From Deltaproteobacteria bacterium (GTDB taxonomy: Bacteria; Myxococcota_A; Polyangia; JAAYKL01), in NCBI GenBank assembly GCA_030595125.1, contig JAUVDV010000041.1, forward strand, positions 1 through 47,367: 47,367 nucleotides of DNA, read 5' to 3'. Under the pieces are notes generated by a model. That model did not search any database and was not told where the DNA came from. It was given only the letters and a program-made list of their open reading frames with translations. This document shows positions 26,328-46,964 of this stretch, one piece after another. Made by a program: the position numbers and the translations under genes. Numbering within the stretch: the first letter of the stretch is position 1; each line of letters starts with the position of its first letter.

Positions 26328-27539
26328 ATGCTCATGAAATCAACAGCGTTGGTGATGTTGGCAATCCTTCTTGCGATCGGCATCGCGTGCAGCAACAATT
26401 CGGGGACTGTCGGAGACGGTACCGACACCGATGCGGATGGCGACACCGATGCGGATGGCGATTCCGATTCGGACACGGATACTTTCGATGAGTGTGAGTC
26501 AATCGAAGAGGGAGTGGGCAATACACTGCAACCTGCTGATATCGTATTTGTTATCGACAACTCGCCAAGTCTTGAACTCGAAATCGCCCAGGTGCGAGCA
26601 AACATGAATACGTTTGCCTCAGACATCGTGGCCAGCGGCATCGATGCTCGCATCGTGATCGTTTCGTGTATCCCCGGGGATTGCGGAAGTTCCGGCGGCG
26701 GTGACAACGAATTCTACGGCATCTGTATCGATCCCCCGCTTGGGGATGCCGCCGGTTGCCAGGGCGATCCGGACGTTGGACCCGTTTCCGATGACACCAA
26801 CCTTCCTGATTACCTGCACTTGAGCACCCGGGTACCCAGCGTGAAGCTTCTCGAATGGCTCCTCGAAACATACGAGGATAACAATATCCTGACCGCTGAC
26901 GGCTGGCACAGCATGATTCGCACCAACTCTACAAAGCATGTCGTGGTGGTTTCTGACGACGCCGATGAAATGAGCGCGACCGACTTCAATGCGGCGTTCC
27001 TGGCGCTGGATCCGGTATTGTTTGCCGACTACCTGTTCCACGGAATCTTCTCTTCCACGAGCAAGGACGAGGCCTGCGCCATCAGCTTGAGCGAACCCTG
27101 TTGCGAATTCTCAGCCCCTGAAGACGTTCCCCCACTCGACTGGGACGTCTATGCCGACCTGGTCACCCTTACCGGCGGCGTATCGGGCGATCTCTGCCTC
27201 CAGGATTTCGACCCGGTATTCGATGCTCTCACGGCATCAGTGATCACAAACTCAGAGATAAACTGTGAATGGATTATTCCGGAACCTCCAGAGGGCGAGG
27301 TCTTTGATCCGGACATGGTAAACATTGTCTTTTCGTACGATGGAGACTCTCACATCGTCGGCAGGGTGAACTCCGAAGATGATTGCGACAGCGTTTCCCA
27401 CGGCTGGTATTATGACGACCCGTCCGACCCGACAATGATTTTTGTATGCCCCCAGACTTGCGACTGGTTCCAGAGTGAGGAAGGTGCGGGTCTTATCATA
27501 CAGTTCGGTTGCGAAACAGAAGTAGCCAACCCCGAGTGA
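26328..27539 (+). CDS. von Willebrand A-like lipoprotein, divergent third copy
   Basis: This 403-residue lipoprotein has AIGIAC (Cys21), an Asp/Thr/Ser linker and a vWA-like domain. The metal-site motif is DIVFVIDNSPSL, and VVVVSDDAD is in the later position. Several Cys pairs are inserted (CIPGDCGSSGGG, CAISLSEPCCEF). The C-terminal module resembles that of the two vWA proteins at 11575-13713 (DPDMVNIVFSYDG, FVCPQTC, FGCE), so the three share one architecture. A strong ribosome binding site (GGGAGG) is present. It may be sigma54-controlled together with the neighbouring system (tentative). Confidence 0.85.
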   Translation: MLMKSTALVMLAILLAIGIACSNNSGTVGDGTDTDADGDTDADGDSDSDTDTFDECESIEEGVGNTLQPADIVFVIDNSPSLELEIAQVRANMNTFASDIVASGIDARIVIVSCIPGDCGSSGGGDNEFYGICIDPPLGDAAGCQGDPDVGPVSDDTNLPDYLHLSTRVPSVKLLEWLLETYEDNNILTADGWHSMIRTNSTKHVVVVSDDADEMSATDFNAAFLALDPVLFADYLFHGIFSSTSKDEACAISLSEPCCEFSAPEDVPPLDWDVYADLVTLTGGVSGDLCLQDFDPVFDALTASVITNSEINCEWIIPEPPEGEVFDPDMVNIVFSYDGDSHIVGRVNSEDDCDSVSHGWYYDDPSDPTMIFVCPQTCDWFQSEEGAGLIIQFGCETEVANPE

Positions 27540-27647: not shown

Positions 27648-28019
27648 ATGCCGGTCAAAATTTCGTTCGTAATAATGCTTGCTTGCGCCATGATGGTATT
27701 CTCATGTGGCGACGATGATCCAAGCAATATCGATTCTGGAACTGATACGGACACCGATGGCGACACTGATGGTGACACTGATTCGGACAGCGATTCAGAC
27801 ACCGATTCAGACACAGACACAGACACCGATTCAGACACAGACACCGACACTGATCCGGACGCCGGATCGGACAGCGGGCCGCTGGATGGTGGGCCGGACA
27901 GCGGGATCAGCGCCTGCGAAGCTGCCGGTTTTGGATGCCACGGCGCCTCCTGGTGCACCAACCATGATGCCGGTGTTCAGGCAGCGTACACGTGTCCGGG
28001 AAGCCAGGTCTGTTGCTGA
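27648..28019 (+). CDS. small lipoprotein with acidic linker and Cys-rich C-terminal domain
   Basis: The 123-residue protein has lipobox VFSC (Cys20) and a long Asp/Thr/Ser/Gly linker (about residues 25-80). A compact tail of ~35 residues carries six Cys (CEAAGFGC, SWC, YTCPGSQVCC). The tail pattern is typical of small disulfide domains in myxobacterial lipoproteins. It lies 37 bases before a PqqD-like gene and the ATP-grasp pathway, so it may be a substrate or partner of that system, but it could also be an unrelated lipoprotein. It has an excellent ribosome binding site (AAGGAG). Confidence 0.8.
   Translation: MPVKISFVIMLACAMMVFSCGDDDPSNIDSGTDTDTDGDTDGDTDSDSDSDTDSDTDTDTDSDTDTDTDPDAGSDSGPLDGGPDSGISACEAAGFGCHGASWCTNHDAGVQAAYTCPGSQVCC
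27742..27860 (+). repeat. GAYWCNGAY-type repeats encoding the acidic linker
   Basis: Imperfect 6- and 12-base units (GACACN GATTCN) encode alternating Asp with Ser or Thr. All units are multiples of three, so changes in copy number would alter linker length without frameshift. Confidence 0.7.
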
Positions 28020-28056: not shown

Positions 28057-28320
28057 ATGACGCAGGCACCATTGCGATGCAAGGATCTGGCAATCAGTGA
28101 CTCCGGCTTCGTCTTCGATCCTGTTTCCGGAACAGTGTTCACCGTCAACTCCACCGGACGCGCCATTCTGACAGTCCTGAAAAAGGGCGCGACAAATTCT
28201 GAAATCTTGAGAGCGCTCTCGCTGGAATTCGATGTCCGAGAGAATGATGTGGAAAGGGATATCGGCGAGTTCCTCGATATACTACGTGGACACCGATTTC
28301 TTCAAAGTGACGAAAACTGA
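28057..28320 (+). CDS. PqqD-like peptide-binding protein
   Basis: This 87-residue protein has the PqqD/RRE layout. The beta-hairpin contains GFVFDPVSGTVFTVNSTGRA, and helices follow with ILRALSLEFDVRENDVERDIGEF and LDILRGHRFL. Proteins of this family bind leader peptides of ribosomal peptide precursors or act as small chaperones for partner enzymes. It heads a run of tightly packed genes (next start three bases after its stop), so it should deliver a substrate to the ATP-grasp or PLP enzyme that follows. The ATG at 28057 has only a weak ribosome binding site. Confidence 0.82.
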   Translation: MTQAPLRCKDLAISDSGFVFDPVSGTVFTVNSTGRAILTVLKKGATNSEILRALSLEFDVRENDVERDIGEFLDILRGHRFLQSDEN

Positions 28321-28323
28321 GAA

Positions 28324-29403
28324 GTGGACAAGAATACGACACTCCATGCAACGGTAGCTGTCACGGGGCTGAATGCAAACGACAACCCAGGCCCCGGTGT
28401 TGGAGTAATCAGAAGTCTTCGCGCAGACCCTTGCTTCGATGGTCGGATAGTCGGCTTGACATACAACCATCTTGACCCGGGGATCTACGATTCCACGCTG
28501 GCAGATGACGTCTACCTCCTGCCGTATCCGAGCAACGGGCGAGCATCGCTGCTCGAACATCTTCGAAGGATAGTCGGAGAAGCCGGCATCGATGTCATCA
28601 TTCCAACCCTTGATGCAGAATTGCCTGCGTTTATAGATTCCGAAGAAGAACTGTCTGCCGCAGGCGCTAAAATGTTCGTTGCCAGTCGGAAAAACCTGCA
28701 CTTGCGCGAAAAGACGCGCCTTACCGACCTCGGAAAAATGTGCGGCATTCCGTCGCCCAAAACACATCGGATCACCGCTCATCGGGAGTTGCCCGAAATA
28801 CTTGACAGTCTGAGTTGTCCAATCGTCGTCAAGGGCATCTTCTACGAGGCCACGATCTGTCGAAACCTCGAGGAAGCGGTGGAAGCCTTCAACACAATAG
28901 CGGCGCGATGGGGTTTGCCCGTGGTAGTGCAGGAGTACATCGAGGGCGAAGAGTACGACGTTGCCGCTGTGGGAGACGGGGCGGGTGGTTTGTTGGGTGC
29001 AGTCCCAATGAAGAAGCTCTCCCTGACGGAAAAGGGCAAGGCGTGGGCTGGAGTTACTGTTGGCGATACTGAACTCATCGATACTGCTAAACGACTCATG
29101 CAATCACTCTCATGGGCAGGCCCCTGCGAGGTCGAACTCATTCGCGAAAAGGCTACCGGGATACTGCACTTGCTGGAGATCAACCCCCGGTTCCCGGCAT
29201 GGATCTATCTCGCCACCGGGGCTGGACAGAACCTGCCTTCGCTGGTTGTCAGAAAGGCCCTCGGCCAGGAGCCGACCCCGCTGACCTCGTACTCGGTTGG
29301 GACGATGTTCGTGCGCATGGCGAGCGACATGATCGCCGAATTATCGGATTTTGAAAAAATCACCACAGGCGGACATGTGGCGAGAGGCGACATCCGACCA
29401 TGA
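28324..29403 (+). CDS. ATP-grasp carboxylate-amine ligase (CarB/PylC-like)
   Basis: The 359-residue protein starts with a nucleotide-binding-like N-domain (VAVTGLNANDNPGPGVGVIR) and DVIIPTLDAELPAF. The ATP-grasp fold follows: SCPIVVKGI, VVVQEYIEGEEYDVAAVGDG, and metal-binding residues near PCEVELI and LHLLEINPRFPAW. Enzymes of this superfamily join a carboxylate to an amine through an acyl-phosphate. The layout is nearer to carbamoyl-phosphate-synthase/PylC-type ligases than to RimK-type peptide graspetide ligases. Substrates are unknown. Start is a GTG; the stop overlaps the next gene by four bases (ATGA). Confidence 0.85.
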   Translation: MDKNTTLHATVAVTGLNANDNPGPGVGVIRSLRADPCFDGRIVGLTYNHLDPGIYDSTLADDVYLLPYPSNGRASLLEHLRRIVGEAGIDVIIPTLDAELPAFIDSEEELSAAGAKMFVASRKNLHLREKTRLTDLGKMCGIPSPKTHRITAHRELPEILDSLSCPIVVKGIFYEATICRNLEEAVEAFNTIAARWGLPVVVQEYIEGEEYDVAAVGDGAGGLLGAVPMKKLSLTEKGKAWAGVTVGDTELIDTAKRLMQSLSWAGPCEVELIREKATGILHLLEINPRFPAWIYLATGAGQNLPSLVVRKALGQEPTPLTSYSVGTMFVRMASDMIAELSDFEKITTGGHVARGDIRP

Positions 29404-30746
29404 ACAAACCACTTTACGAAAAACCTATCATTTCGAAATTGGCCCCCGGAGTGGCAAACAAGTTCGGGCATCGGCTGGCTGCGCCGGTCACCGAGTCCAT
29501 CGAGGGCATACCGATCCGCGATCTCATCGACGCACACGGATCCCCGTTGTTCGTATTTGTGGAGAACAAGCTCCGAAGACAATATCGCGATCTTCACGCC
29601 GCCATGACCTTGCGTTATCCGAAGATCAAGCTTGCATGGTCGTACAAGACCAACTACCTCGGGGCCGTTTGTCGGGTCTTTCACGATGAGGGCGCCTGGG
29701 CAGAAGTAGTTTCCGATTTCGAATACAACAGGGCGGTAGCTCTTGGTCAGCACAGGTCGGAAATTATTTACAACGGACCGTACAAGTCCAGATCTTCGCT
29801 GGAAGAAGCTGTTTCCAACGGCACCATCATCAACATCGATCATTACGATGAAATGCAGGTTCTCGAAGAAATCGCCAGACAACAGAAGACTGAACCGACG
29901 GTCGGCCTCAGGATAAATCTCTCCACCGGCTTCACTCCCCACTGGGACCGCTTCGGTTTCAATCTCGAAAACGGGCAGGCGATGACCGCCGCCGAGCGAA
30001 TTCGCTCCAGAGGTGTTCTCCGACTGGCCGGCCTCCACTGCCATATAGGCACTTTTGTACTTGAAGCCGACGCCTATCGCTCGGCCGCCCAGAAACTGTC
30101 CGAGCTGGCAAATCAGATCGGGAAGGAGCTGGGCATTACGCTCGATTACCTGGATCTGGGTGGAGGTTTCGCTTCGAGAAACACTCTTCATTCGCAGTAC
30201 TTGCCGGGAGATGAAGTCTCGCCGTCTTTCCAGGAGTATTCCAACGCGATCGTGGAAGGACTCGATCATCTCGACAACAATGGAAACAAACCCACGCTGA
30301 TTCTCGAAACCGGTCGGGCGCTGGTGGACGACGCCGGTTATCTCCTGACATCGGTGGTCGCCACCAAGCGGCTGGAAGATGGGCGAAGAGCAATCGTACT
30401 GGATGCAGGCACCAATCTTCTTCCAACCTCCGCATGGTACAGACACGACATTTTCCCCGCGAGCGAGTGCCAGGGAGGCCCGGAACCTACCGCCGTCCTG
30501 GGCCCTCTCTGCATGCAAATTGACATCCTCAGGGAAAACATGATGCTTCCACCGCTCACCAAAGGAGATCTGATGGTCTTCAAACGGGTGGGAGCCTACA
30601 ACGTCTCCCAGTGGACTCAATTCATCACACTGAGGCCGGCGGTTGTCATGATCTCGCCCGACGGGGAAGTGCACGTCATCCGAAAGAGCGAGACCATCGA
30701 TGATGTGACAGGACGCGAAGAGATCCCGCCTCATCTCTCGTCGTAA
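29400..30746 (+). CDS. PLP-dependent decarboxylase of the DAP/ornithine decarboxylase (fold III) family
   Basis: The 448-residue protein has the alanine-racemase-like barrel with catalytic Lys83 in WSYKTNY. Further motifs are GLHCHIGTF, LDLGGGFAS, ILETGRALVDDAGYLL and DAGTNLLPTS. The C-terminal part has GPLCMQIDIL and GAYNVSQWTQF, equivalent to the GPxC and GAY motifs of diaminopimelate decarboxylase. It may decarboxylate a free amino acid or an amino acid conjugate made by the adjacent ligase. It differs enough from LysA around the substrate motifs (CMQID in place of C-E-S-x-D) that housekeeping lysine synthesis is unlikely. Confidence 0.87.
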   Translation: MNKPLYEKPIISKLAPGVANKFGHRLAAPVTESIEGIPIRDLIDAHGSPLFVFVENKLRRQYRDLHAAMTLRYPKIKLAWSYKTNYLGAVCRVFHDEGAWAEVVSDFEYNRAVALGQHRSEIIYNGPYKSRSSLEEAVSNGTIINIDHYDEMQVLEEIARQQKTEPTVGLRINLSTGFTPHWDRFGFNLENGQAMTAAERIRSRGVLRLAGLHCHIGTFVLEADAYRSAAQKLSELANQIGKELGITLDYLDLGGGFASRNTLHSQYLPGDEVSPSFQEYSNAIVEGLDHLDNNGNKPTLILETGRALVDDAGYLLTSVVATKRLEDGRRAIVLDAGTNLLPTSAWYRHDIFPASECQGGPEPTAVLGPLCMQIDILRENMMLPPLTKGDLMVFKRVGAYNVSQWTQFITLRPAVVMISPDGEVHVIRKSETIDDVTGREEIPPHLSS

Positions 30747-30753
30747 CGCGCTT

Positions 30754-32889
30754 ATGTCCACATCGCATCCCAGATCGATCCGACACGTCATGGGAGCGGT
30801 GATCGACTCTACGCTTGCAAGCTACAGCCAGGTGCTATTCTCAAGATTTCGGACTTCGGGCTTGATCCTTATGTGCGCGACGGCTGTCCGCCCTTCTGTT
30901 TTCGCCCATGGGTTGCTTGCCGTTCTCATCTCAAATGCGGTGGCGCTCTGGATCGGCATGAATCGGCGGGCGATCAGGACGGGGCTATTCGGATTCAACG
31001 GCCTCCTCGTGGGGCTGGGAATCGGCGCGTGGTTCACCCCCTCCCCTGCCACCGTCGCCTTGCTGGTAGCCGCATCCATCGCAGTTGTTCTCACCAACGC
31101 CGGAATGCGAAGACTTCTCGGTGAGACGCTCGGACTACCTGTTCTCTCGGTGCCGTTCCTGATCGTTTTCTACGCGATCCTTGCCGCGAGTCCGTCCATT
31201 GAGGCGTTCGAGTTCCAATCCTGGTTGCCGGCATCTACTCCCGTTGCGACATATCCATGGTGGTTAGCAACAACCTTCGGGCGCTGCCTCGGCGCCATCT
31301 TCTTCGTCCCCGAGCCGATGGCCGGCGCCCTGGTGCTCCTCGCGCTCATTTTTGCTTCTCGATCAAGCGTGTTCCTGTCGTTGGTTGCCTTCGCCATCGT
31401 GTTGATCGCGGGAGTGCCCCTGCTCTCAAGCGAAGCATCGATCACCACCCTGGAACTGGTAATGAATTCCGTGCTCATCGGCATCGCCCTTGGAGGTGTG
31501 TTCTTCGTACTGGGACGAGCTTCCCTTCTCACTGCAATCATCGGAATAGTAATCGGAATGCTGGTCGCGTTGGCGACCTGTCGGATATGCCGGATGGCCG
31601 GGTTGCCCGGGCTCGTACTGCCATTCAATGTCACAGTACTTCTCTTTCTCTACGCCATGCGCCATCGCACAAGGAATCGAGCACCGGTGCAGCTCAATGT
31701 TGTCCTGCGTTCTCCGGAGGAGAGCTGGTACAGACATTGGGAGCGCGTGGAACGGTTTGGGTGGTCCTTGCCCAAAAGATTGTCTCTACCCTTCAGGGGA
31801 ACCTGGCAAGTGACTCAGGGATGGAACGCCACTGAAACTCACAATCGCGATTGGAGCCACGGTTGGGATTTCCAGGTATTCGACGAAAGGGGCTCTCCAT
31901 TCAAAACGCAGGGAGCTGACGTGTCCGACTACCATTGCTTTCGCCTCCCGGTGACTGCTCCGGCAGACGGCGTTGTTGTCAGCGTGAACGACGGAGTGGA
32001 GGATAACCCTGTCGGCGAGCAGAACATGGTCCAGAACTGGGGTAACAATATTTCAATGCAGCACGCCGACGGTCTCTTTTCCCTGGTGGCACACCTGTCC
32101 CTGAACACCATCACTGTTCAGGAGGGCCAGCGGATCAAACGGGGTGACGAAATAGGGCTGTGTGGAAACTCGGGGAGATCTGCAATTCCCCACTTGCACG
32201 TCCAGTTCCAGGCCAGCCGCCATGTCGGAGCCCCTACTATCCCCGGAGAATTTCACGACACGGTCCTTGAATGCGAACCTTCCAAAGTACACGGCTGTTA
32301 TGTGCCGATCGAGGGCGATCGGGTCAGAAACCTCATGCTGGATATGCACTCACTAGGGCTTTTCAGCTTGCCTCGCGGACGCAGTCTGTCATTTCAGGTC
32401 GACACTCCTTCCGGATCTTCACACGTGGAGACAATCCGGGTCGAAACCAATCCTTACCAGGAAAAGCTTCTACGCTCCGTCGAAACGGGTTCAATTCTCA
32501 AGTTCAACGACGAAGAACCTGCCCTGTCATCACTGGAGTTCAGCGGGAGTCGGAGTTCCGCTCTTGCGGCGATCCATATGGCAACGGGGCAGATCCCGAT
32601 GGAAATCAAGGACGGCGCAATCTGGAAAAGCAAGATCGTCTGGCACCCGCACAGAACGATACTCTCCAGGTGGCTTCGCGAGTTTTCAAGGCCGCTTATC
32701 GGATCCGATATGCGATGCATGGCATACGAAATGCGGAAGCACGGCGCCGATCTGATCGTAACCGGACGCTCCTCGGGAATCGGCTATTCCATTTCCACCG
32801 AGGCTCGTTTCTCCAACGGGCACGGCCTTGTGGATGTCACTGTATCCCTGGGAAAAAAACAACTGAAAGTAAGGAGACTCGATGTCTAG
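30754..32889 (+). CDS. urea-transporter-like membrane domain fused to an M23 peptidase-like domain
   Basis: The 711-residue protein has two parts. Residues ~12-300 are a hydrophobic, roughly ten-span domain matching urea transporters (STLASYSQVLFS, FGFNGLLVGLGIGAW, LVLPFNVTVLLFLYAM). After a linker, residues ~345-500 form an M23/LytM-like domain: HNRDWSHGWDFQVFD, then IGLCGNSGRSAIPHLHVQFQ with HLH at 480-482. The rest, to 711, is beta-rich and unassigned. The metal-site His-Gly-x-Asp spacing differs by one residue from classical M23, so activity is uncertain. It starts seven bases after the decarboxylase and overlaps the next gene by eight bases. It may carry a small product and act on the cell wall. 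Confidence 0.82.
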   Translation: MSTSHPRSIRHVMGAVIDSTLASYSQVLFSRFRTSGLILMCATAVRPSVFAHGLLAVLISNAVALWIGMNRRAIRTGLFGFNGLLVGLGIGAWFTPSPATVALLVAASIAVVLTNAGMRRLLGETLGLPVLSVPFLIVFYAILAASPSIEAFEFQSWLPASTPVATYPWWLATTFGRCLGAIFFVPEPMAGALVLLALIFASRSSVFLSLVAFAIVLIAGVPLLSSEASITTLELVMNSVLIGIALGGVFFVLGRASLLTAIIGIVIGMLVALATCRICRMAGLPGLVLPFNVTVLLFLYAMRHRTRNRAPVQLNVVLRSPEESWYRHWERVERFGWSLPKRLSLPFRGTWQVTQGWNATETHNRDWSHGWDFQVFDERGSPFKTQGADVSDYHCFRLPVTAPADGVVVSVNDGVEDNPVGEQNMVQNWGNNISMQHADGLFSLVAHLSLNTITVQEGQRIKRGDEIGLCGNSGRSAIPHLHVQFQASRHVGAPTIPGEFHDTVLECEPSKVHGCYVPIEGDRVRNLMLDMHSLGLFSLPRGRSLSFQVDTPSGSSHVETIRVETNPYQEKLLRSVETGSILKFNDEEPALSSLEFSGSRSSALAAIHMATGQIPMEIKDGAIWKSKIVWHPHRTILSRWLREFSRPLIGSDMRCMAYEMRKHGADLIVTGRSSGIGYSISTEARFSNGHGLVDVTVSLGKKQLKVRRLDV

Positions 32890-34207
32890 GCTCGTCTCCT
32901 CTTGTTGCCTTGCGATGTTGATGCTGGCCGGAAAAGTCGGCGGCGCCGCTGAGGAGCCGCAAGACTTCGATGTTCTGATGCGCGCCGGCTGGGCCGCACT
33001 TCAACAAGAACATTATTCGCTCGCGGTCGATCACTATTCGGCCGCCGTCGAGCTCTCCGATGGAAACAAAACAGCGCTGTTCGGTCTGGCATCAGCACTG
33101 AACGGCAAGGGAGACTTCAACGAGGCCGTCCCGATAGCTCGCAGAGCCGTCGAGGCCGCTCCCGACAAAACGGGGCCGCGACTTGAACTGGCATTCGCTC
33201 TGTACAATCTCGATCGCATCAGGGGATCTCTTGAGCAATATGCTCTCATAGTCGAGGCGCACCCGGACAACGCAGACGCTCGCGCCGGCATGGGATGGTG
33301 TCTGTACAAACTCGGCAACCGCGATGAGGCGATAGACCATTTTGACCGCGCCCTGTCACTGGAACCCGGCCATGTCCCTTCGCTGGAAGGAAAGCGGGCG
33401 CTCGCCCAGGATAGAATAGACTTCGGTGTTACGGGTCTACTCCTTATCGGGGACAACACACCCAGCTTTTCTGCAGGAGGAGGAGTGGCCACTTTCATCG
33501 ACGGATTCTCGCGCAGGGTCCGTATGAGGGCAGCCTACCGTGTAGTCCTTCTGGACCTGGTCAGCGATCTGGAAACAACCTCGGACGGCACTCCGATCGG
33601 TAGCTCGAGCAGCCGTCCGGGCGAAAAAAAAACGAATCTGGTTGGAGCACACTTCGGCGCTGCCGGGATCGACTACCTCGGCCGCCGAGTGGAGGTCGGA
33701 TTGCTTGGCGGTGTGGCAGGAACCTCCGATAGAAGTTGGCTCTCGGGCGTCGTAGCTGCGCGTTTTGCCCTTCTGGTACGGGCAAGACTGGTGCTGGACA
33801 GCGCCCTCTTGCCCTCTTCCAATGGTGTCATATGGCAGATAACGCCACGCATTGAGATTCCGGCAACGAGCATGTTATCCATCTGGGCGGGATCGAGGAT
33901 CACGGATTCGAGGGGAGACTGGCTTTTTGCCGGCGAGGCCGGTCTTCATATACACGGCGCACGTCTGAGCCTGGATCTCTGGGGGGGATACGGCCCGACA
34001 GACAGCCCGTTTGTATACGACCCGGCGATTCTGAAGGACTATCGCGAATTGCTGGTGTGGCTCGGCGCCGCCGCCATGGAGGTAATCATTTCACCGAAGT
34101 TTACGCTGAGCTTCGCATACGAGGCGGCCGGAACACTGGGAGAAGACGAAAATATGATTGAGCGCTCCGGGATTGTTCATACCATCTCTCTTGGAATGAT
34201 CCTGTAG
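32882..34207 (+). CDS. exported TPR protein with C-terminal beta-barrel-like domain
   Basis: A 441-residue protein with a signal peptide (about 1-22, ending GGAAEEP). At least four TPR units lie in residues ~30-175 (GWAALQQEHYSLAVDHYSAA, GLASALNGKGDFNEAV, GMGWCLYKLGNRDEAIDHF). The second half (about 185-441) has alternating strands typical of outer-membrane barrels and ends in HTISLGMIL. This pairing suggests an outer-membrane pore or assembly factor whose periplasmic TPR part binds partners. It overlaps the transporter-peptidase gene by eight bases, so it belongs to the same system. Confidence 0.78.
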   Translation: MSRLVSSCCLAMLMLAGKVGGAAEEPQDFDVLMRAGWAALQQEHYSLAVDHYSAAVELSDGNKTALFGLASALNGKGDFNEAVPIARRAVEAAPDKTGPRLELAFALYNLDRIRGSLEQYALIVEAHPDNADARAGMGWCLYKLGNRDEAIDHFDRALSLEPGHVPSLEGKRALAQDRIDFGVTGLLLIGDNTPSFSAGGGVATFIDGFSRRVRMRAAYRVVLLDLVSDLETTSDGTPIGSSSSRPGEKKTNLVGAHFGAAGIDYLGRRVEVGLLGGVAGTSDRSWLSGVVAARFALLVRARLVLDSALLPSSNGVIWQITPRIEIPATSMLSIWAGSRITDSRGDWLFAGEAGLHIHGARLSLDLWGGYGPTDSPFVYDPAILKDYRELLVWLGAAAMEVIISPKFTLSFAYEAAGTLGEDENMIERSGIVHTISLGMIL

Positions 34208-34223
34208 TATTTGGAGGAGGATA

Positions 34224-34874
34224 ATGAACCATAAGATTACAGCCAGAATAGGTATTGGATGGGCAGTGTTCATAACGCTTGCGCTGACGGCCTGGCTTGC
34301 CGCAGGCGGCCCGTCCGCCAGGGAGATCATCCCCTCCCTGTTTCAGGAATCCTACATTCTGGAGTCAAAAGGCAAGCACAAGGCGGCGCTGAAAAAAGCG
34401 CGTGAGGTTTTGAAACGCGACCCCAACGAATACGTTGCACAGCTACGGGTGGGTTGGCTCCTGTACCTCGATGAAGAGTACACTGAATCCGTTATTGCCT
34501 ATCGCAAAGTCGTCGCCATGAAACCGTCTGCCATCGAACCCAAGCTCGGATTGATGCTCCCCCTGATGGCGCTCAAGAAAAACTCGGAGGCAACCGGGGT
34601 CGCGCAGGAAATACTGAAGGTAGATCCGCAGAACTACCTGGCGCGAAGTCGCATGGCATTTTGTCTGTATCTCATGGGAAGGTATGAAAAAGCCGGCCGG
34701 GAATACGAGAAGCTTCTCGTATTATACCCTTCGGATGTAGAGATGATGGCGGGCCTCGGATGGTCCCAACTCAAGATGGACAAGAAAGAGGCCGCAAGAT
34801 CAACTTTCGCGCGCCTCCTGCACATAGCTCCCAATCACGTAATCGGGAAAGACGGTTTTTCAAGGTGCAAGTAG
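34224..34874 (+). CDS. membrane-anchored TPR protein
   Basis: The 216-residue protein has an N-terminal hydrophobic segment (about residues 9-29) that is a signal anchor or signal peptide. About four TPR units follow (AREVLKRDPNEYVAQLRVGW, LYLDEEYTESVIAYRKVVAM, MGRYEKAGREYEKLLVLYP, GLGWSQLKMDKKEAARSTF). An AGGAGG-type ribosome binding site lies 16 bases after the preceding stop. It is probably a periplasmic scaffold that works with the TPR/barrel protein. No enzymatic motif is visible. Confidence 0.82.
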   Translation: MNHKITARIGIGWAVFITLALTAWLAAGGPSAREIIPSLFQESYILESKGKHKAALKKAREVLKRDPNEYVAQLRVGWLLYLDEEYTESVIAYRKVVAMKPSAIEPKLGLMLPLMALKKNSEATGVAQEILKVDPQNYLARSRMAFCLYLMGRYEKAGREYEKLLVLYPSDVEMMAGLGWSQLKMDKKEAARSTFARLLHIAPNHVIGKDGFSRCK

Positions 34875-34885
34875 CCGGGGTGTAG

Positions 34886-36253
34886 TTGAAGTATTCGAGA
34901 CAAAAAGAGGCCCGTGGAAATCAGGCCGTCTTGCGAAGATTGTCTCTCACGCTCTTTCTCGTCGCACTGGCCGGAGCAGTAACCGCCGTGGCTTATCAGG
35001 ATCTGACATCCATAAGCACAACAAGGAAAATGGAGAACGGGAGGGCGCTATCCTTTTCTGCGCTTGTCGAAACAGAGGTTGCCAATGTTGCGCAGTTCGG
35101 CACCATGCGCATGGAGCGCCTGGAGCGATTGTTCAAGGATCTGGTTGCAAACGGCAACGTCGAATACCTGGGACTTCACAATGAGGAAGGACAGCCCCTG
35201 GTAGAGGCAGGCCACTCCAAAGACGCCAGGGATCTCTCCGCAAAAACCGAAGGTCTCCATTCTCTTGGCGACGACATCCAAGTCTTTCGCAGACTGTCCA
35301 TCCGTGAGTCATTCTCCGCGTCACACGGCGGCACCTGGGCCGGGGCTTCACCGGGTGGCCCCGGTGGAAACCCGAGCGGCATGATAACGGGAAACGTAGC
35401 ATTGACTCTGGAGTTCAACGGGCGATGGACAACAGAGGCCCGGTCGGATGCCATAGCCCATCTCCTGGTAACAACACTCATCCTGGTAGCGTTTGCTTTT
35501 TCGGCGGTTCTCATGCTCAGAGCAACCCGGCGCTCCGAAGTTGCGCAAAGGCAAAAGCGACTAGCCGAACAGCGCAGCCAGTATCTGGAAGGCATCAACC
35601 TGATGGCATCCGGGCTTGCTCACGAGATAAAGAATCCCATCGGCGCAGTCACGGGATTTGCTGAGCTGCTGGCGCAGAAACACTCGGCTGACACCGAAGA
35701 CGGTCGATTTTCGAGAACAATGTTGGAGGCCCTCGAGGGCGTCAATGAGAGAGTGAATCGACTGCTCAGTTTCGCCAAACCGAAGCCAACTGCAAGAACC
35801 AGACTGGACATGGACAATATCGTCCAGAAGGTCGTCGATCTGCTGGAGCCCGACATCTCCGAAAACAAGGTGACCGTTGAGCTTTCACTGAACGGGTCTA
35901 TTCCCCCTGCGTCCCTGGATCCGGAACAGTTCAAGGAAATTGTCCTTAATCTCATGTTGAACGCCGTCGATGCGGTCGGCAGTGGTGGAAAGATTCGTCT
36001 GGAAACCAGGTACGATGAAAATGACTCGGTGCACGTGTTCACCATGACGGACAACGGTCCGGGAATAGCGGCGCAAGACGTCGAGAAAGTATTTCGGCCG
36101 TACTTCACGACCAAGGCGTCGGGTTCGGGTCTCGGCCTGGCAATTTGCAAGAGGAACGCAGAAAACCATAATGGAACAATCTGGATAATCAGCGACTCAA
36201 ACGCCGGAACTTCGGTTATTGTCACGATACCACTGGAAGAGGTCGATGAATAA
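34886..36253 (+). CDS. membrane sensor histidine kinase
   Basis: A 455-residue kinase with two membrane spans (about residues 15-35 and 190-212). They flank a periplasmic sensor region with a Gly/Pro-rich stretch (GGTWAGASPGGPGGNPSG). His246 lies in GLAHEIKNPIGAV, the phosphorylation site. The ATPase domain shows the N box (LNLMLNAVDAVGSGG), MTDNGPGIA, FRPYFTTKASGSGLGLAICK. It starts with TTG and overlaps the response regulator by eight bases. It should sense a periplasmic signal, perhaps the product or effect of the upstream enzymes, and phosphorylate that regulator. Confidence 0.92.
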   Translation: MKYSRQKEARGNQAVLRRLSLTLFLVALAGAVTAVAYQDLTSISTTRKMENGRALSFSALVETEVANVAQFGTMRMERLERLFKDLVANGNVEYLGLHNEEGQPLVEAGHSKDARDLSAKTEGLHSLGDDIQVFRRLSIRESFSASHGGTWAGASPGGPGGNPSGMITGNVALTLEFNGRWTTEARSDAIAHLLVTTLILVAFAFSAVLMLRATRRSEVAQRQKRLAEQRSQYLEGINLMASGLAHEIKNPIGAVTGFAELLAQKHSADTEDGRFSRTMLEALEGVNERVNRLLSFAKPKPTARTRLDMDNIVQKVVDLLEPDISENKVTVELSLNGSIPPASLDPEQFKEIVLNLMLNAVDAVGSGGKIRLETRYDENDSVHVFTMTDNGPGIAAQDVEKVFRPYFTTKASGSGLGLAICKRNAENHNGTIWIISDSNAGTSVIVTIPLEEVDE

Positions 36254-37568
36254 AATTCTCATAATCGATGACGAATTGAGTCAACGCGAACTTCTTTGCG
36301 CCGTTCTTGAGAAGGATGGATACTCCTGCGTCTCAACTCCGGACGGAAACGACAGCGTTGATCTCATTGGACAGCACGGTATCTCTCTCGTCTTGCTGGA
36401 CATGCGAATGCCCAAGCTCGACGGCCTGGAAACACTCGATCTGATCCGGAAGCATTTTTCACAGTTGCCCGTTGTCATGGTGACCGCCCACGGAGATGTA
36501 AAGACCGCAGTTGACGCAATGAAAAGAGGGGCCGTCGATTTCATTGAAAAGCCTGTTGATATCACGCGCCTTCGAAATCTCGCCAATAGTCTCCTCAATA
36601 ATACAAACCCCGCCACGCCCCCGGAACAGGCCTCGGCCGAATCCATGGGCTTCATCGGTGTAAGCAAGGTCGCCGAGGATATTCGGGAGCTTTGCAAGGT
36701 TAGCGCGAAATCAAACGCAACAATTCTGATCACCGGAGAAAGCGGCACCGGAAAAGAAGTGATCGCCAGGGCGACACACGCAATGAGCACGCGCGCCGCA
36801 GGGCCATTTGTGGCCATCAACTGCGCCGCAGTGCCTGAACAGCTTCTTGAAAGCGAAATCTTCGGACACGAAAAAGGGGCTTTCACCGGAGCGGTCGCCC
36901 GAAAGATCGGCCGATTTGAAACGGCAAACGGCGGGACGATCCTGCTCGACGAAATCGCAGAGATGCGCTCGGATCTTCAGAGCAAGCTGTTGAGGGTCTT
37001 GCAAGAGAGGTCGCTGGAACGTGTGGGCGGAACTGCGAGCATCCCGGTCGATGTTCGCGTGATAGCCGCAACGAATACCAATGTGGAAGAAGCCCTCGTC
37101 GAGGGCACCCTGAGGGAGGATCTTTTCTATCGTCTGAACGTATTGCGCATTGCGATACCCCCTCTTCGCGAACGCCCCGAGGATATTCTTCCGCTGGCGT
37201 GCCACTTCCTGACAAAACATGGGGCCGGAAAACCAAGACGACTGACCCAGGCGACAATCAAGAAGTTGAACTCATACGACTGGCCGGGAAACGCACGGGA
37301 ACTCGAAAACACCATAGAAAGATCATTTCTCTTTGCCAAGGGACAGGACATCTTGCCGGAGCATCTTCCTCCCCAGCTGGGTGGTCGCTCATCCGAGGGA
37401 ACCAACGAAACCGGGGTGCGCCCCGGCTGGAGTCTTCAGGAGGTTGAACGCGATCTGATCATCAAGACCCTCAGAGTGAACAACAACAACCGCACCTTGA
37501 CCGCCAGGGCTCTTGGGATGTCGCGCCGATCCCTCCAGATGAAGATCAAAAAGTTCGAAATCAGCTAA
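36246..37568 (+). CDS. sigma54-activating response regulator (NtrC family)
   Basis: The protein has 440 residues from the ATG at 36246 (in-frame sequence upstream belongs to the kinase gene). The receiver domain has IIDDE and Asp52 in LLDMRMPKLDGLE. The AAA+ domain has Walker A GESGTGKEV, the sigma54 contact loop GAFTGA, and Walker B ILLDEIAEM. The C-terminal Fis-type helix-turn-helix is in RTLTARALGMSRRSLQMKIK. It should activate sigma54 promoters when phosphorylated. It ends the operon; a sigma54-like promoter lies 191 bases further on. Confidence 0.94.
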   Translation: MNKILIIDDELSQRELLCAVLEKDGYSCVSTPDGNDSVDLIGQHGISLVLLDMRMPKLDGLETLDLIRKHFSQLPVVMVTAHGDVKTAVDAMKRGAVDFIEKPVDITRLRNLANSLLNNTNPATPPEQASAESMGFIGVSKVAEDIRELCKVSAKSNATILITGESGTGKEVIARATHAMSTRAAGPFVAINCAAVPEQLLESEIFGHEKGAFTGAVARKIGRFETANGGTILLDEIAEMRSDLQSKLLRVLQERSLERVGGTASIPVDVRVIAATNTNVEEALVEGTLREDLFYRLNVLRIAIPPLRERPEDILPLACHFLTKHGAGKPRRLTQATIKKLNSYDWPGNARELENTIERSFLFAKGQDILPEHLPPQLGGRSSEGTNETGVRPGWSLQEVERDLIIKTLRVNNNNRTLTARALGMSRRSLQMKIKKFEIS

Positions 37569-40920: not shown

Positions 40921-40942
40921 AAATACGATTTGCCTCGTATTT
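40921..40942 (+). other. perfect 8-base hairpin upstream of DUF2341 lipoprotein 1
   Basis: AAATACGA (40921-40928) and TCGTATTT (40935-40942) pair around TTTGCC. There is no T-run. It lies 54 bases before the start codon and might be an operator or leader hairpin. Confidence 0.45.
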
Positions 40943-40961
40943 GCGGCACGAAAATTAAGCA

Positions 40962-40983
40962 GGGGTTTTCCAGTGAGAACCCC
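40962..40983 (+). other. 6-base leader hairpin before the ribosome binding site
   Basis: GGGGTT (40962-40967) and AACCCC (40978-40983) can pair. The hairpin is immediately followed by the AGGGAG ribosome binding site at 40984-40989, so it could affect translation of the next gene. Confidence 0.4.
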
Positions 40984-40995
40984 AGGGAGTTCTTG

Positions 40996-42339
40996 ATGTT
41001 AAAGTATTTGGTTTTACTCATATTTTATTGTGTCTTCCTCTGCGCCATCTTTGGAGTTCAGTCGTGCGCAGACACCAAGTTCGAACCCGGTTCTCCTTCC
41101 GACAGCGATTCCGATACGGACACCGACACCGATTCGGATACTGATTCCGACACGGACACTGATTCGGATACCGATTCCGACACGGACTCTGACACAGACA
41201 CGGACACCGATTCCGATACGGACACCAATATCTCGGACTGGAGCTACCGGCGGGAAATCACTATTACATCGATCGCCTCTTCGGATCTCACCGATCATCA
41301 ATTGCTCGTATTACTCGAATCCAGTTTCGAATATTCGAACGCGGAGTCAAACGGGGAAGATGTTCGATTCTCCACCGATGGTACCGGCGCGACCTTCGAT
41401 CTGGATCACCATATCGAGAGCTGGAACACTAGCGGCGAGAGCAGAATATGGGTCAAGATTCCCACCATCACCGCAGCTAACGACACGGTATTTTACATGT
41501 TCTACGGAAATGCCGGCGAACCCGACGACCAGATCGATTTCACGACCATGTTCCCCAATGCATTCACTAGCACCGGCGCGGTGGCTCTGACCGGTGACAA
41601 CGACTACGACTATTTTGAACTGCAAGCCGGTCACACGCTCACAGTAGGAAACGGCCAGGTCTTGCACATCACGGCACGTATCATCACGATTGCCGGTGCG
41701 GTAAATGGTGATGGCTCGGGATACACTTCCAGCACCGGCCCCGGCGCTGGCGGCGACGCCAGCAGTTCATCGGGCGGAGGCGGAGGAGGATACGGCGGAG
41801 CGGGTGGGCAGGGCGGCTTCGATTCGGGAGATAGTCCCGGGGCCGGCGGAATTGCGAACGGCGATCAGACAGGCGTTTCCGTGGATATGGGCTCCGGCGG
41901 CGGGGTATATTCGAGCGGCACCGGCGGCGCGGGCGGCGGTGGAATCTGGCTGGACGGAACAGTTGTGAATGTCTCGGGAAATATTCAGGCAAACGCAAAC
42001 AACGGAACGGGCAGCGCCGCGTTCGGCGGAGGGGGCGCCGGCGGTGGGATATTGATCACAGGCGATCACGTCACTGCTTCGGGTGCCTATTCGGCACAGG
42101 GTGGCGACGGCGGTTCCGGCACCAGCGCCAACGACGGCGGGGGCGGCGGCGGCGGGGGACGGATCAAGGTATTCTACGACACATCGAGCAATACTACCTA
42201 TACCACCGATGTCTTGTACGGAAGCGGAGGATGTTGTGGCGACAGCGATTACGGCGACAACGGTTTCATCGGCACTACCCACGAAGGGCAGACCCCGTAC
42301 ACCGTGTCGCTGACAATCGGGGCACAAACAACGATTTAA
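40996..42339 (+). CDS. lipoprotein with DUF2341 and glycine-rich domain, copy 1
   Basis: The protein has 447 residues from ATG 40996, chosen for AGGGAG six bases upstream; a longer frame from 40930 would push the signal inward. The lipobox is GVQSC (Cys24). An Asp/Ser/Thr linker leads to a DUF2341-type domain at about residues 81-200 (WSYRREITIT, NGEDVRFSTDG, RIWVKIPTITAANDTVFYMF). A glycine-rich region (about 235-440) has repeated GGGGGGYGG-type segments and LTVGNGQVLHI, suggesting a Gly-rich beta-helix. It is probably surface-exposed; function unknown. A paralogue follows directly. Confidence 0.85.
   Translation: MLKYLVLLIFYCVFLCAIFGVQSCADTKFEPGSPSDSDSDTDTDTDSDTDSDTDTDSDTDSDTDSDTDTDTDSDTDTNISDWSYRREITITSIASSDLTDHQLLVLLESSFEYSNAESNGEDVRFSTDGTGATFDLDHHIESWNTSGESRIWVKIPTITAANDTVFYMFYGNAGEPDDQIDFTTMFPNAFTSTGAVALTGDNDYDYFELQAGHTLTVGNGQVLHITARIITIAGAVNGDGSGYTSSTGPGAGGDASSSSGGGGGGYGGAGGQGGFDSGDSPGAGGIANGDQTGVSVDMGSGGGVYSSGTGGAGGGGIWLDGTVVNVSGNIQANANNGTGSAAFGGGGAGGGILITGDHVTASGAYSAQGGDGGSGTSANDGGGGGGGGRIKVFYDTSSNTTYTTDVLYGSGGCCGDSDYGDNGFIGTTHEGQTPYTVSLTIGAQTTI
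41098..41226 (+). repeat. repeats encoding the acidic linker of DUF2341 copy 1
   Basis: Imperfect GATTCNGAYACN units encode alternating Asp with Ser or Thr. The array is similar to, and shorter than, that of the downstream paralogue. Confidence 0.65.
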
Positions 42340-42385: not shown

Positions 42386-43756
42386 GTGAGCAATATTTTA
42401 AAAACAACCATGGTATCTCTCTTTGCAATCTTGCTTCTCGGCCAGTCGGGTTGCGCCCAGACCAGTGTGAAACCCGGATATTCGGACTCCGACGCTGACT
42501 CTGACAGCGATTCCGATACGGACACCGACACAGATTCGGATACTGATTCCGACACGGACTCTGACACTGATTCGGACACCGATTCCGACACGGACTCTGA
42601 CACAGATACGGACACCGATTCCGATACCGACACTGACACCGATACGGACAGCGACTGGAACTACCGACGGGACATCACCATCACCTCCGTCGGGTCCGGC
42701 GTCTTGACAGCTCATCAGATTCCGGTCTTCCTTGACTCAACCTTCGATCACTCGAACGCCGAAGCAAACGGCGAAGATGTTCGGTTCTCCACCGATATCA
42801 CCGGGTCGGTTTTTGACCTGGACCACTACATTGAATTTTGGAACGACGGCGGCGAAAGTGTCGTCTGGGTCAAGATCCCCACCATCGCCGCCAGCGCGGA
42901 CACCACCGTCTATATGTTCTACGGTAAAGTCGGAGAGCCTGACGGTCAGACCGCGTTCGCGACCATTTTCCCAAACGCGTTCGTCAGCGCCGGCGGAGAA
43001 ACACTGACCGGAACCAACATTTACGACTGGTTCGAGGTGCAGTCGGGCCATACGGTCAACGTTGGCACGGGCCAGGTGCTTCGTATAGCGGCGCGTAATA
43101 TCATCGTCGACGGCACGCTACTTGGTGACGGCAAGGGGAACCTTAGCGCTGCAGGCTCCGGTTCCGGCGGGTACTCCAGCACAGCAGGTGGCGGAGGGGG
43201 CGGCTACGGCGGAAACGGCGGACTGGGCGGCTACGATTCCGGCGATTCCCCGGGATCAGGCGGCAGCACAAACGGAAGCCAGACCACCCCTGGGATCGAT
43301 ATGGGATCCGGCGGTGGCGCGACAGATTCCTCGAGCGGTGGCGCCGGTGGCGGTGCGACCTGGCTGGAAGCCTCGCGAATCGGCGTTTCCGGCACCATAG
43401 AAATGGGCGGGAGCATCGGCGGAGGGAGCGGACGTTCGGGGGGCGGCGGCGCCGGCGGTGGAATCCTCATGATCTCCGACAGAATCGAAGTCTCCGGAAC
43501 GCTCACAGCGACTGGTGGCGCCGGAGGAAGCGGCGGTGACAGCGCCAACGACGGCGGTGGTGGCGGCGGCGGCGGACGTGTGAAACTGTTCTACGATTCG
43601 GACGACAACATAACGGGAACCATGAGCGTTTCCGGTAGTGCCGGCGGCTGTTGCGGAGACAGTTCGTCCGGCGCAAGCGGCGCCAGCGGTACCACCCACC
43701 AGGCCACCTTGCCGTTCGAGACCACAATAACTGTCGGATCCGAAACCTCCATCTGA
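42386..43756 (+). CDS. lipoprotein with DUF2341 and glycine-rich domain, copy 2
   Basis: This 456-residue paralogue of the preceding gene has lipobox GQSGC (Cys23) and a longer Asp/Ser/Thr linker. DUF2341 follows (WNYRRDITIT, NGEDVRFSTDITGSVFDLDH, VWVKIPTIAASADTTVYMF), then the Gly-rich region (GGGGGGYGGNGGLGGYDSGD, DGGGGGGGGRVKLF, GGCCGDSSSG). The two proteins align along their whole length, so this is a tandem duplication. The GTG start has AAGGG upstream; an in-frame ATG at 42410 is possible but would shorten the signal. Probably co-transcribed with copy 1 (46-base gap). Confidence 0.85.
   Translation: MSNILKTTMVSLFAILLLGQSGCAQTSVKPGYSDSDADSDSDSDTDTDTDSDTDSDTDSDTDSDTDSDTDSDTDTDTDSDTDTDTDTDSDWNYRRDITITSVGSGVLTAHQIPVFLDSTFDHSNAEANGEDVRFSTDITGSVFDLDHYIEFWNDGGESVVWVKIPTIAASADTTVYMFYGKVGEPDGQTAFATIFPNAFVSAGGETLTGTNIYDWFEVQSGHTVNVGTGQVLRIAARNIIVDGTLLGDGKGNLSAAGSGSGGYSSTAGGGGGGYGGNGGLGGYDSGDSPGSGGSTNGSQTTPGIDMGSGGGATDSSSGGAGGGATWLEASRIGVSGTIEMGGSIGGGSGRSGGGGAGGGILMISDRIEVSGTLTATGGAGGSGGDSANDGGGGGGGGRVKLFYDSDDNITGTMSVSGSAGGCCGDSSSGASGASGTTHQATLPFETTITVGSETSI
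42483..42652 (+). repeat. repeats encoding the acidic linker of DUF2341 copy 2
   Basis: About 170 bases of GATTCCGACACGGACTCTGA-type units encode alternating Asp with Ser or Thr. Units are in frame, so copy-number change alters only linker length. Confidence 0.7.
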
Positions 43757-46800: not shown

Positions 46801-46964
46801 AGGTCATCGCCGAAGCGTATAACCCAGACAACCCTGCAGGATGGCTTGACAAACCACTGCCCGAGCTGGACGGCAAGTATATCAAACTCACCCGGATAGA
46901 CGGCCCCGGACCCACACCGAATCCCGACCCACTTTCGGACATAGCCGACGAGGATGTGAAATGA
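43806..46964 (+). CDS. membrane diguanylate cyclase with propeller (Reg_prop), Y_Y_Y and GGDEF domains
   Basis: The 1052-residue protein begins with a signal peptide (to about residue 38, ASTADN). A long series of two-component-regulator-type propeller repeats follows to about residue 640, with units such as DRVGFIWIGTQDGLFRYDG and DRLWVGTNQGVGIW. A Y_Y_Y domain (about 665-755) and a membrane span (about 770-788) are followed by a short coiled coil and a GGDEF domain with the active motif GGEEF at 910-914. RQSD (901-904), five residues before it, is an inhibitory-site pattern. It should make cyclic di-GMP in response to a periplasmic ligand. It overlaps a small lipoprotein gene by four bases. 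Confidence 0.93.
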   Translation: MVRPLKPIGNLSTAITGTIPATLILLLVFLAPVASTADNIPDNPRYLFEPIGNDMGLATRGATTMLQDRVGFIWIGTQDGLFRYDGAQVRSFSADDGAPWAVVDQILEGPNGDVWLVAEGDVARFNGLGFESLNIAFKKGAAGGITLDVPQPMAFDRTGQFYLATTAGLALVDPLSGEIKRNWSVEEGIPSPAVRAVHVAPDGLVWFAAGSHLGWLRPESGAVKLFDIFESMPKEDIVAILVNETGTVWVRTRNNLMRMDPGATVFTAACEEIAEAASGGMPSLDQAGNILVPTRIGLLLQDGDGWERLSAKNGLRVNAVWSVLEDREGSLWIGLGGAGVSWSPGRGNWSAWTSREGLPDDGVWGIIRDPMDRLWVGTNQGVGIWLPDEDRWDVLTKKDGIFGDSVWKLVLGNHGEMWSLSRRLGITRIDLETLTPEIVTLPERFVSGPTDMVMGPKGDLWVGGSQYLLKIRVGEEGLTFEDISFPDEIVGCTEVASVSDDGVVWTAGQNGLGRFDGEKWGHFAKKDGLQVDRLEYLSAESDNVVWIDYRASVGITRFELTAFGPAVRQYGSEDGLTGDTVFLLQHDAIGRVWVGTADGLSVISRDGKITSFDTGDGLIWNDISQGGLWSEPDGTVFIGTGRGLAYYRPSEKTALSLPPTVVITSATLGGREQILSENPIVPYASNTFVAKYSGLVFRDSARTTFRYRLEGLEQEYFETNQREVRYPALPMGTYNFEVMCANADGVWSEKPAVFSFVVESPWWESLWARFGGGAILVLIVFLILEIRTRKLARDRRRLEAAVTERSAQLAEANRELREMSFTDALTMVRNRRFFSSVIDGDVSNVLRKNDPRSDDACDRTRDLIFYMVDIDFFKKVNDVLGHMAGDRVLVETASRLGMSIRQSDLLVRWGGEEFLIVCRNTVREEGHMVTQRILDLIGATPFETEKGQKFRRTCSVGWAVLPSYREHPTDLPHETVIELADKALYLAKESGRNCGVGVEVIAEAYNPDNPAGWLDKPLPELDGKYIKLTRIDGPGPTPNPDPLSDIADEDVK

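Follow-up and report, generated by a model that had tools for sequence, protein, structure and literature searches.

A conserved bacterial fusion of a urea-transporter domain with an M23 peptidase domain and its possible place in a synthesis-export operon

Introduction

Proteins with the urea transporter (UT) fold have been studied as urea channels, and proteins of the M23 family as enzymes of the cell wall. The family mark of UTs consists of two repeats, each carrying an LPxxTxPF-type motif, which is also seen in dvUT. As described in the structural literature, the filter residues in the N-terminal half of solved UTs line the inner site Si and those in the C-terminal half the outer site So, UT-A2 having Gln at the position of dvUT Glu187 and Thr at that of Thr294 (PMC4357013); the pores are 2-3 Å wide, and the inhibitor pocket of human UT-B lies on the intracellular side (PMC10541013). 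The M23 family is defined by the motifs H(x)nD and HxH, the latter preceded at a distance of about 30 residues by another catalytic His, according to a review that counts more than 1,000 InterPro architectures for these peptidases and in whose main text no word begins with 'urea' or 'transporter' (PMC9662197).

A search of the open-access literature, an incomplete source, returned no description of a UT-M23 fusion or of the operon reported here. Architectures joining UT and M23 are listed in Pfam-type databases, and the present one may already be known to them. Both domains belong to known families, and it is their stable combination with this operon that was not found described. The fusion is encoded on a contig of 47,367 nucleotides (JAUVDV010000041.1, assembly GCA_030595125.1, Deltaproteobacteria bacterium), the whole of which was analyzed and is referred to as the window.

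The Fusion Protein and Its Conservation

Residues 17-301 of the fusion (Table 1) match the Pfam family UT (PF03253) with 167.9 bits against a gathering cut-off of 25, and residues 399-487 match Peptidase_M23 (PF01551) with an E-value of 1.1e-15 and 58 bits against a cut-off of 28.7. These profile searches bear out the two domains proposed in the original prediction, namely a urea transporter pattern in the N-terminal ~300 residues and an M23-like domain in the middle. In the PDB, the UT part finds its best sequence matches in 8blo, 3k3f, and 3me1 (E 1e-19 to 1e-18), and the second part in M23 structures, among them 6jmx (E 2.7e-7). The UT repeats read LPVLSVPF (residues 128-135) and LPGLVLPF (284-291), the T of LPxxTxPF being replaced in both, and P129, P134, and P290 are kept in 28 of 28 aligned sequences. 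The ~200 residues left unassigned by the prediction (515-711) match no Pfam family or PDB chain: searches with 33 homologues gave scattered single Pfam matches and no convincing family, and a profile of the domain retrieved no PDB chain better than E 2.1. This C-terminal domain is kept in the fusions and is absent from nine free-standing M23 relatives aligned alongside.

Table 1. Features of the fusion protein and its operon, in window coordinates.
Feature	Position	Strand	Details
PqqD-family small protein, first gene of the conserved operon	28057..28320	+	87 aa; Pfam PqqD E 9.7e-12
ATP-grasp ligase	28324..29403	+	359 aa; Pfam ATPgrasp_Ter E 3.3e-14, ATP-grasp_3 E 1.4e-9
PLP-dependent decarboxylase, DAP/ornithine decarboxylase fold	29400..30746	+	448 aa; Pfam Orn_Arg_deC_N E 1.2e-36
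UT-M23 fusion ORF	30754..32889	+	711 aa, ATG start
Urea-transporter domain, residues 17-301	30802..31656	+	Pfam UT E 3.8e-49
Ala181 at dvUT Glu187 position, outer filter	31294..31296	+	A in 34/36 fusions
Val288 at dvUT Thr294 position, middle filter	31615..31617	+	A12 I10 V8 S5 T1 of 36
M23 domain, wide sense, residues 335-515	31756..32298	+	includes N-terminal stretch common to free-standing relatives
His363, candidate zinc ligand (H-x8-D)	31840..31842	+	36/36 fusions
HGWD, residues 369-372	31858..31869	+	D372 36/36, H369 33/36
His447, catalytic-histidine position, 33 residues ahead of HxH	32092..32094	+	36/36 fusions
HLH, residues 480-482 (HxH motif)	32191..32199	+	35/35 fusions reaching it
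C-terminal domain, residues 515-711, fold without known match	32296..32886	+	
TPR protein, signal-like N-terminus, probable C-terminal outer-membrane barrel	32882..34207	+	441 aa; TPR E 8e-17
TPR protein, N-terminal membrane anchor (by eye)	34224..34874	+	216 aa; TPR E 5.3e-18
Sensor histidine kinase	34886..36253	+	HATPase_c E 9.4e-26, HisKA E 1.8e-10
Sigma-54 response regulator, NtrC type	36219..37568	+	Sigma54_activat E 2.3e-68, Response_reg E 2.9e-30

Among 377 sampled genomes of the phylum, 35 were confirmed to carry the fusion, that of the window included, and two further genomes (G121 and G164) carry the same operon on contigs that end inside the UT domain, with the M23 part missing; together these make up the 37 fusion genomes considered below. 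When 282 genomes of the phylum were searched at the protein level, a single alignment covered both domains in 27 rows, at 32-100% identity, and a separate, pattern-based contig scan yielded two relatives of 85-88% identity in metagenome-assembled genomes labelled Deltaproteobacteria. Relatives outside the phylum of the fusion were drawn from plasmids and one pattern-based contig scan. Thirty-six sequences, the window included, share this domain order down to ~31% identity, which excludes a chance fusion. These 36 rows belong to a set of 45 aligned proteins, from which the nine free-standing M23 proteins are left out of the counts; they exclude G121 and G164 and include L002, which came from the contig scan. 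Alignment A3 was built from the window and 32 of 34 computed loci, and alignment A4 from the window, 38 of 44 loci, and three plasmid loci. An assembly artefact or a frameshift product has practically no probability left as an explanation and was rejected, being refuted by independent genomes that carry the same single stop-free frame in the 27 search rows and the 36 aligned proteins. The fusion of UT and M23 is genuine.

In this 377-genome sample, the UT domain is mostly the M23-fused protein. It was found by Pfam search in 41 genomes, and the four without the fusion contain a UT alone (G035), a UT with EF-hands (G101 and G353), or a UT split over two frames (G249). The two frames of this last gene overlap (L090:7030-8147, minus strand), and it could be a decayed copy. 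One genome (G100) has a UT-only copy in addition to its fusion, while a search of the window's own genome found the fusion as its sole UT.

The Metal Site of the M23 Domain

The complete M23 motif set is present in the fusion as His363/Asp372, His447, and His480/His482. His363 sits nine residues ahead of Asp372, and since this H-x8-D arrangement, His447, and HLH fit the definition of the family, the zinc site is expected to be intact, with His363, Asp372, and His482 as its predicted ligands. HLH was conserved wherever the sequence extends to it, one of the 36 fusions ending at a contig end ahead of the motif.

HGWD and HLH had initially been taken as the M23 motifs, the former with one residue fewer than H-x-G-x-D. 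The count is right, as HGWD is one residue short of HxxxD, and HLH holds as the second motif. HGWD probably does not hold as the first metal motif, given that His369 is replaced in three of 36 fusions (by Asp, Ser, and Phe) and is missing in all aligned free-standing relatives, whereas His363 occurs in every fusion. The free-standing relatives of alignment A4 are ten, seven from the phylum and three from plasmids of Haloferax, Thermus, and Haladaptatus, with further members viewed by eye; all ten have a His in the same upstream stretch as His363, and three positions ahead of the Asp they carry Trp, Tyr, Phe, or Arg in place of His. Asp372 is probably the conserved zinc-ligand Asp, and His369 is probably dispensable.

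The Membrane Side of the M23 Domain

Lys and Arg residues are more numerous on the side of the N- and C-termini than on the opposite side in 36 of 36 fusions, and in 34 of 36 the internal loops also have the higher net charge there. Raw Lys/Arg counts in the internal loops alone are nearly equal between the sides (means summing to 4.0 versus 3.8), and the cytosolic call rests on the termini, the charge density, and the net charge. The loop boundaries behind these figures are approximate, having been set by hand from averaged hydropathy and from the helices of a low-confidence AlphaFold model (full length, three close sequences, mean pLDDT 32; mean pLDDT 28 for residues 335-515). The same loop pattern is seen by eye in L079, a protein consisting of the UT alone. 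Moreover, the residues of the UT-B inhibitor pocket map to the N-terminal half in our own mapping, and this intracellular pocket, together with the distribution of Si and So over the two halves, points to termini, and with them an M23 domain, on the cytosolic side. The M23 domain thus probably faces the cytosol; the estimate is kept at this level because, judged by eye, the phylum's free-standing relatives frequently appear exported, L047 and L052 being lipoprotein-like and L041-L045 showing three membrane segments with the M23 domain placed outside. The positive-inside count, a prediction with hand-set helix boundaries, does not give the extracytoplasmic location expected of a wall peptidase. 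A cytosolic peptidase domain devoid of a metal site, the combination named as speaking against the original prediction, was found only in its first half, as the site residues are conserved.

If instead the UT were inverted or the C-terminus translocated, the M23 domain could act on peptidoglycan in the periplasm, as a peptidase that makes local openings in the wall for the TPR/barrel export machinery. Such an arrangement would suit an operon encoding envelope proteins, and wall enzymes or their activators make up most of the M23 relatives that the PDB searches name; the lipoprotein-like and the outward-facing forms noted by eye among the phylum's free-standing relatives point the same way. It is nevertheless rather unlikely in view of the charge pattern shared by all fusions, the matching pattern of L079, and the orientation of solved UTs. 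Moreover, the nearest plasmid relatives of the M23 domain include haloarchaeal ones, and haloarchaea are without murein. The proposal that the wall-peptidase-like domain couples wall state to transport is disfavoured because the M23 domain is predicted to be cytosolic and these murein-free organisms are among the holders of its nearest plasmid relatives.

A cytosolic placement would also suit a domain that serves as a metal- or ligand-binding gating module of the channel and not as an enzyme. An IIA-like domain of the same broad fold class gates the LacS permease, and in two genomes the UT is fused to another sensor-type domain, EF-hands. Catalytically dead M23 binding domains are moreover known from EnvC and NlpD, according to the family review (PMC9662197). 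This role appears distinctly unlikely, since all catalytic positions (His447 and His480), beyond the metal ligands, are kept across the 36 fusions and a binding module would not need them.

The Pore and Urea Transport

Filter positions were mapped from the alignment to dvUT in the PDB search. The inner half is mostly kept, with Gln at the inner-filter position of dvUT Q24 (Q26) in 26 of 35 fusions and Ser or Thr at the middle-filter position of T130 (132) in 36 of 36, whereas the polar residues of the outer filter are lost in 34-35 of 36. Judged from this alignment, the polar groups usual in the outer half of the pore are gone in the fusions. In L079, a UT-only protein of the same phylum, the four filter positions read Q, T, Q, and T (by eye). 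The UT-only protein L081, whose genome encodes the fusion as well, has Ala at the E187 position too (by eye), so the outer-filter change is not confined to fusions.

The fusion also misses the cut-off of the NCBIfam equivalog model urea_trans_yut, with 102 versus 274.6 bits, although L079 as a UT-only control lies under it as well (186 bits). Genome searches found no urease alpha in the window's genome and, among the 41 UT genomes searched, no full-length match in any of the 37 with the fusion; the sole full-length match is in G101, which has a UT-EF-hand protein and no fusion. Four weak partial matches (25-28 bits against a cut-off of 23) in the fusion genomes G102, G229, G265, and G334 are tentatively read as other amidohydrolases. 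Urea uptake for nitrogen supply through urease is unlikely on these grounds.

There remains the view of the protein as an ordinary urea channel that releases urea formed as a cytosolic by-product and has an accessory hydrolase attached. The high score of the UT domain, far over the Pfam cut-off, and the mostly preserved inner filter are consistent with it; the loss of outer polar residues, which L079 retains, and the missed urea-specific cut-off, which L079 misses too, leave it highly doubtful. Of the channel for urea or small amides originally proposed, the similarity to UTs stands and urea as the solute is weakened by the loss of filter residues and the lack of a full-length urease match in the fusion genomes.

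The Operon and Its Neighbourhood

In the window, the genes follow the order PqqD, ATP-grasp, PLP decarboxylase, UT-M23, TPR-barrel, TPR, histidine kinase, and sigma-54 response regulator, and those of the operon overlap or nearly touch: the decarboxylase start overlaps the ATP-grasp stop, and the start of the 441-residue TPR protein overlaps the stop of the fusion. The barrel of this TPR protein was judged by eye from it and from comparable proteins. The PqqD-family protein reaches 43.1 bits with NCBIfam TIGR04353, over the cut-off of 35. The best NCBIfam models for the decarboxylase are FslC (262.7 bits) and lysA (232.5 bits), both under cut-off; a rhizoferrin-type NIS siderophore pathway was considered and rejected, as the FslC-type N-citrylornithine decarboxylase model requires 500 bits.

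The suspected link to the neighbouring enzymes is supported by gene order. In a table of 37 UT loci, from which L087 is missing as it falls under the UT threshold, all 35 loci that extend for 250 bp or more ahead of the UT have the decarboxylase directly upstream of it on the same strand. The second TPR protein is encoded downstream in all 33 loci that reach far enough, either adjoining the fusion or after ~1.0-1.7 kb, a gap that in the window holds the TPR-barrel gene; a barrel-like gene (by eye) is found upstream of PqqD in L048, L056, L066, L067, and L084. Of the 377 genomes, 36 encode the operon's ATP-grasp (E <= 1e-40), and 34 of these belong to the fusion genomes (Fisher p 1.7e-42 with the 37 fusion genomes, uncorrected for shared descent). 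The ATP-grasp is missing from the fusion genomes G331, G256, and G260, in which the contig ends at or close to its place, and the ATP-grasp genomes without the fusion are G190 (contig end) and G351 (no UT nearby). In the latter, ATP-grasp and decarboxylase share one 907-residue frame beside PqqD, without UT-M23 (L091:6648-9371, minus strand), which suggests that the two enzymes catalyze consecutive steps. In G251, no ATP-grasp stands beside the decarboxylase (L059), and PqqD and ATP-grasp are on another contig (L097) with no decarboxylase after them. The ORF starts in these loci are the first start after a stop, and long N-terminal extensions, such as a 'PqqD' of 372 aa, may be start-call artefacts.

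A carrier or precursor peptide was sought among same-strand ORFs of at least 18 aa in the 900 bases upstream of PqqD, and no conserved small-ORF family was found there; the clusters obtained are low-complexity chance matches, pieces of sensor kinases, Cys-rich proteins, and barrel pieces. The ORF just upstream of PqqD in the window (27648-28019, plus strand) encodes a lipoprotein-like product that combines long Asp/Thr/Ser repeats with a Cys-rich tail and is conserved in the closest relatives alone (L002 and L054). Further upstream, 26328-27539 (plus strand) encodes a 403-residue protein that matches neither Pfam nor NCBIfam models and is conserved in L002. Elsewhere in the window, two adjoining DUF2341 proteins (40930-42339 and 42386-43756, plus strand) precede a GGDEF protein that carries a Reg_prop propeller (43806-46964).

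Proposed Function

The fusion is tentatively read as the inner-membrane part of a six-gene synthesis-export operon, in which a cytosolic zinc hydrolase would be mounted on an altered small-solute pore; we consider this the likeliest of the readings weighed, though somewhat short of an even chance. The PqqD protein, the ATP-grasp ligase, and the PLP decarboxylase would make, in the cytosol, a small product containing an amide or amine group. The M23 domain, hanging from the cytosolic face of the UT and binding zinc through the three predicted ligands, would hydrolyze an amide bond of a pathway intermediate or of its carrier, and the UT fold would let a by-product, or a small uncharged solute that is not urea, through towards the periplasm. 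The TPR and TPR-barrel proteins would serve the rest of the envelope, and the two-component system beside the operon may control it. Against this reading, UT pores of 2-3 Å (PMC10541013) are too narrow for most amide products, and the exported look of several free-standing relatives suggests that M23 domains of this type frequently act outside the cytosol. A far more specific version, which we regard as a long shot, is that the M23 domain frees a small amide-type product from a PqqD-held carrier after ligation and decarboxylation and hands it to the re-cut UT pore for exit through the TPR/barrel proteins.

An ordinary urea channel or a cell-wall enzyme is unlikely. Two folds usually studied apart are here found together, jointly altered, and in a conserved operon. 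Should the synthesis-export reading hold, UT pores could carry solutes other than urea and M23 enzymes could act in cytosolic biosynthesis. Moreover, an uncharacterized small molecule would still have to be found, for which the operon provides a concrete handle.

Comparison with Known Systems

Compared with dvUT (PDB 3k3f and 3me1) and with UT-A and UT-B, the whole UT domain of the fusion aligns and the inner filter is largely kept. However, the fusion adds a C-terminal M23 domain and an extra domain, has Ala for E187 and Ala, Ile, Val, or Ser for T294 in nearly all members, and belongs to an operon without urease. With the M23 family (LytM, lysostaphin, ShyA, and DipM) it shares H(x)nD, the upstream catalytic His, and HxH. 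It differs from classical members in having H-x8-D where these have Hx3D, ~25 additional residues inserted ahead of the Pfam-matched part, and attachment to a membrane channel on the predicted cytosolic side.

Closer to the M23 region are free-standing proteins of haloarchaea, Thermus, and Thermomicrobium (H1-H8 and L074-L077), with 36-40% identity over ~150 residues, the same insert, and the same upstream His. In these proteins, a short hydrophobic N-terminal anchor replaces the UT and the C-terminal 200-residue domain is absent, and no such operon was seen within 3 kb on each side of their genes in the plasmid loci viewed. L074-L077 are membrane-anchored H-x(n)-D M23 proteins on plasmids of Haloferax, Thermus, Haladaptatus, and Thermomicrobium. 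The UT-EF-hand fusions of the same phylum likewise join a UT to a soluble C-terminal domain, with EF-hands instead of M23; C-terminal EF-hand pairs are found in L049:8655-10316 (plus strand) and L080:5560-7167 (minus strand). The genome of L049 has a full-length urease match, unlike any fusion genome.

Lastly, the carrier-peptide (pearlin) pathways and the peptidase-containing ABC exporters serve as a working analogy only, which extends to a PqqD-type chaperone, a ligase, a modifying enzyme, a peptidase, and a transporter. The transporter and peptidase families differ, and no carrier or precursor peptide was found here. In the former pathways, the pearlin is released from its carrier peptide by proteolysis (PMC9016710). 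If the specific version of the proposed function were true, the fusion would be a UT-based counterpart of the peptidase-containing exporters and its M23 domain an enzyme with a biosynthetic job inside the cell.
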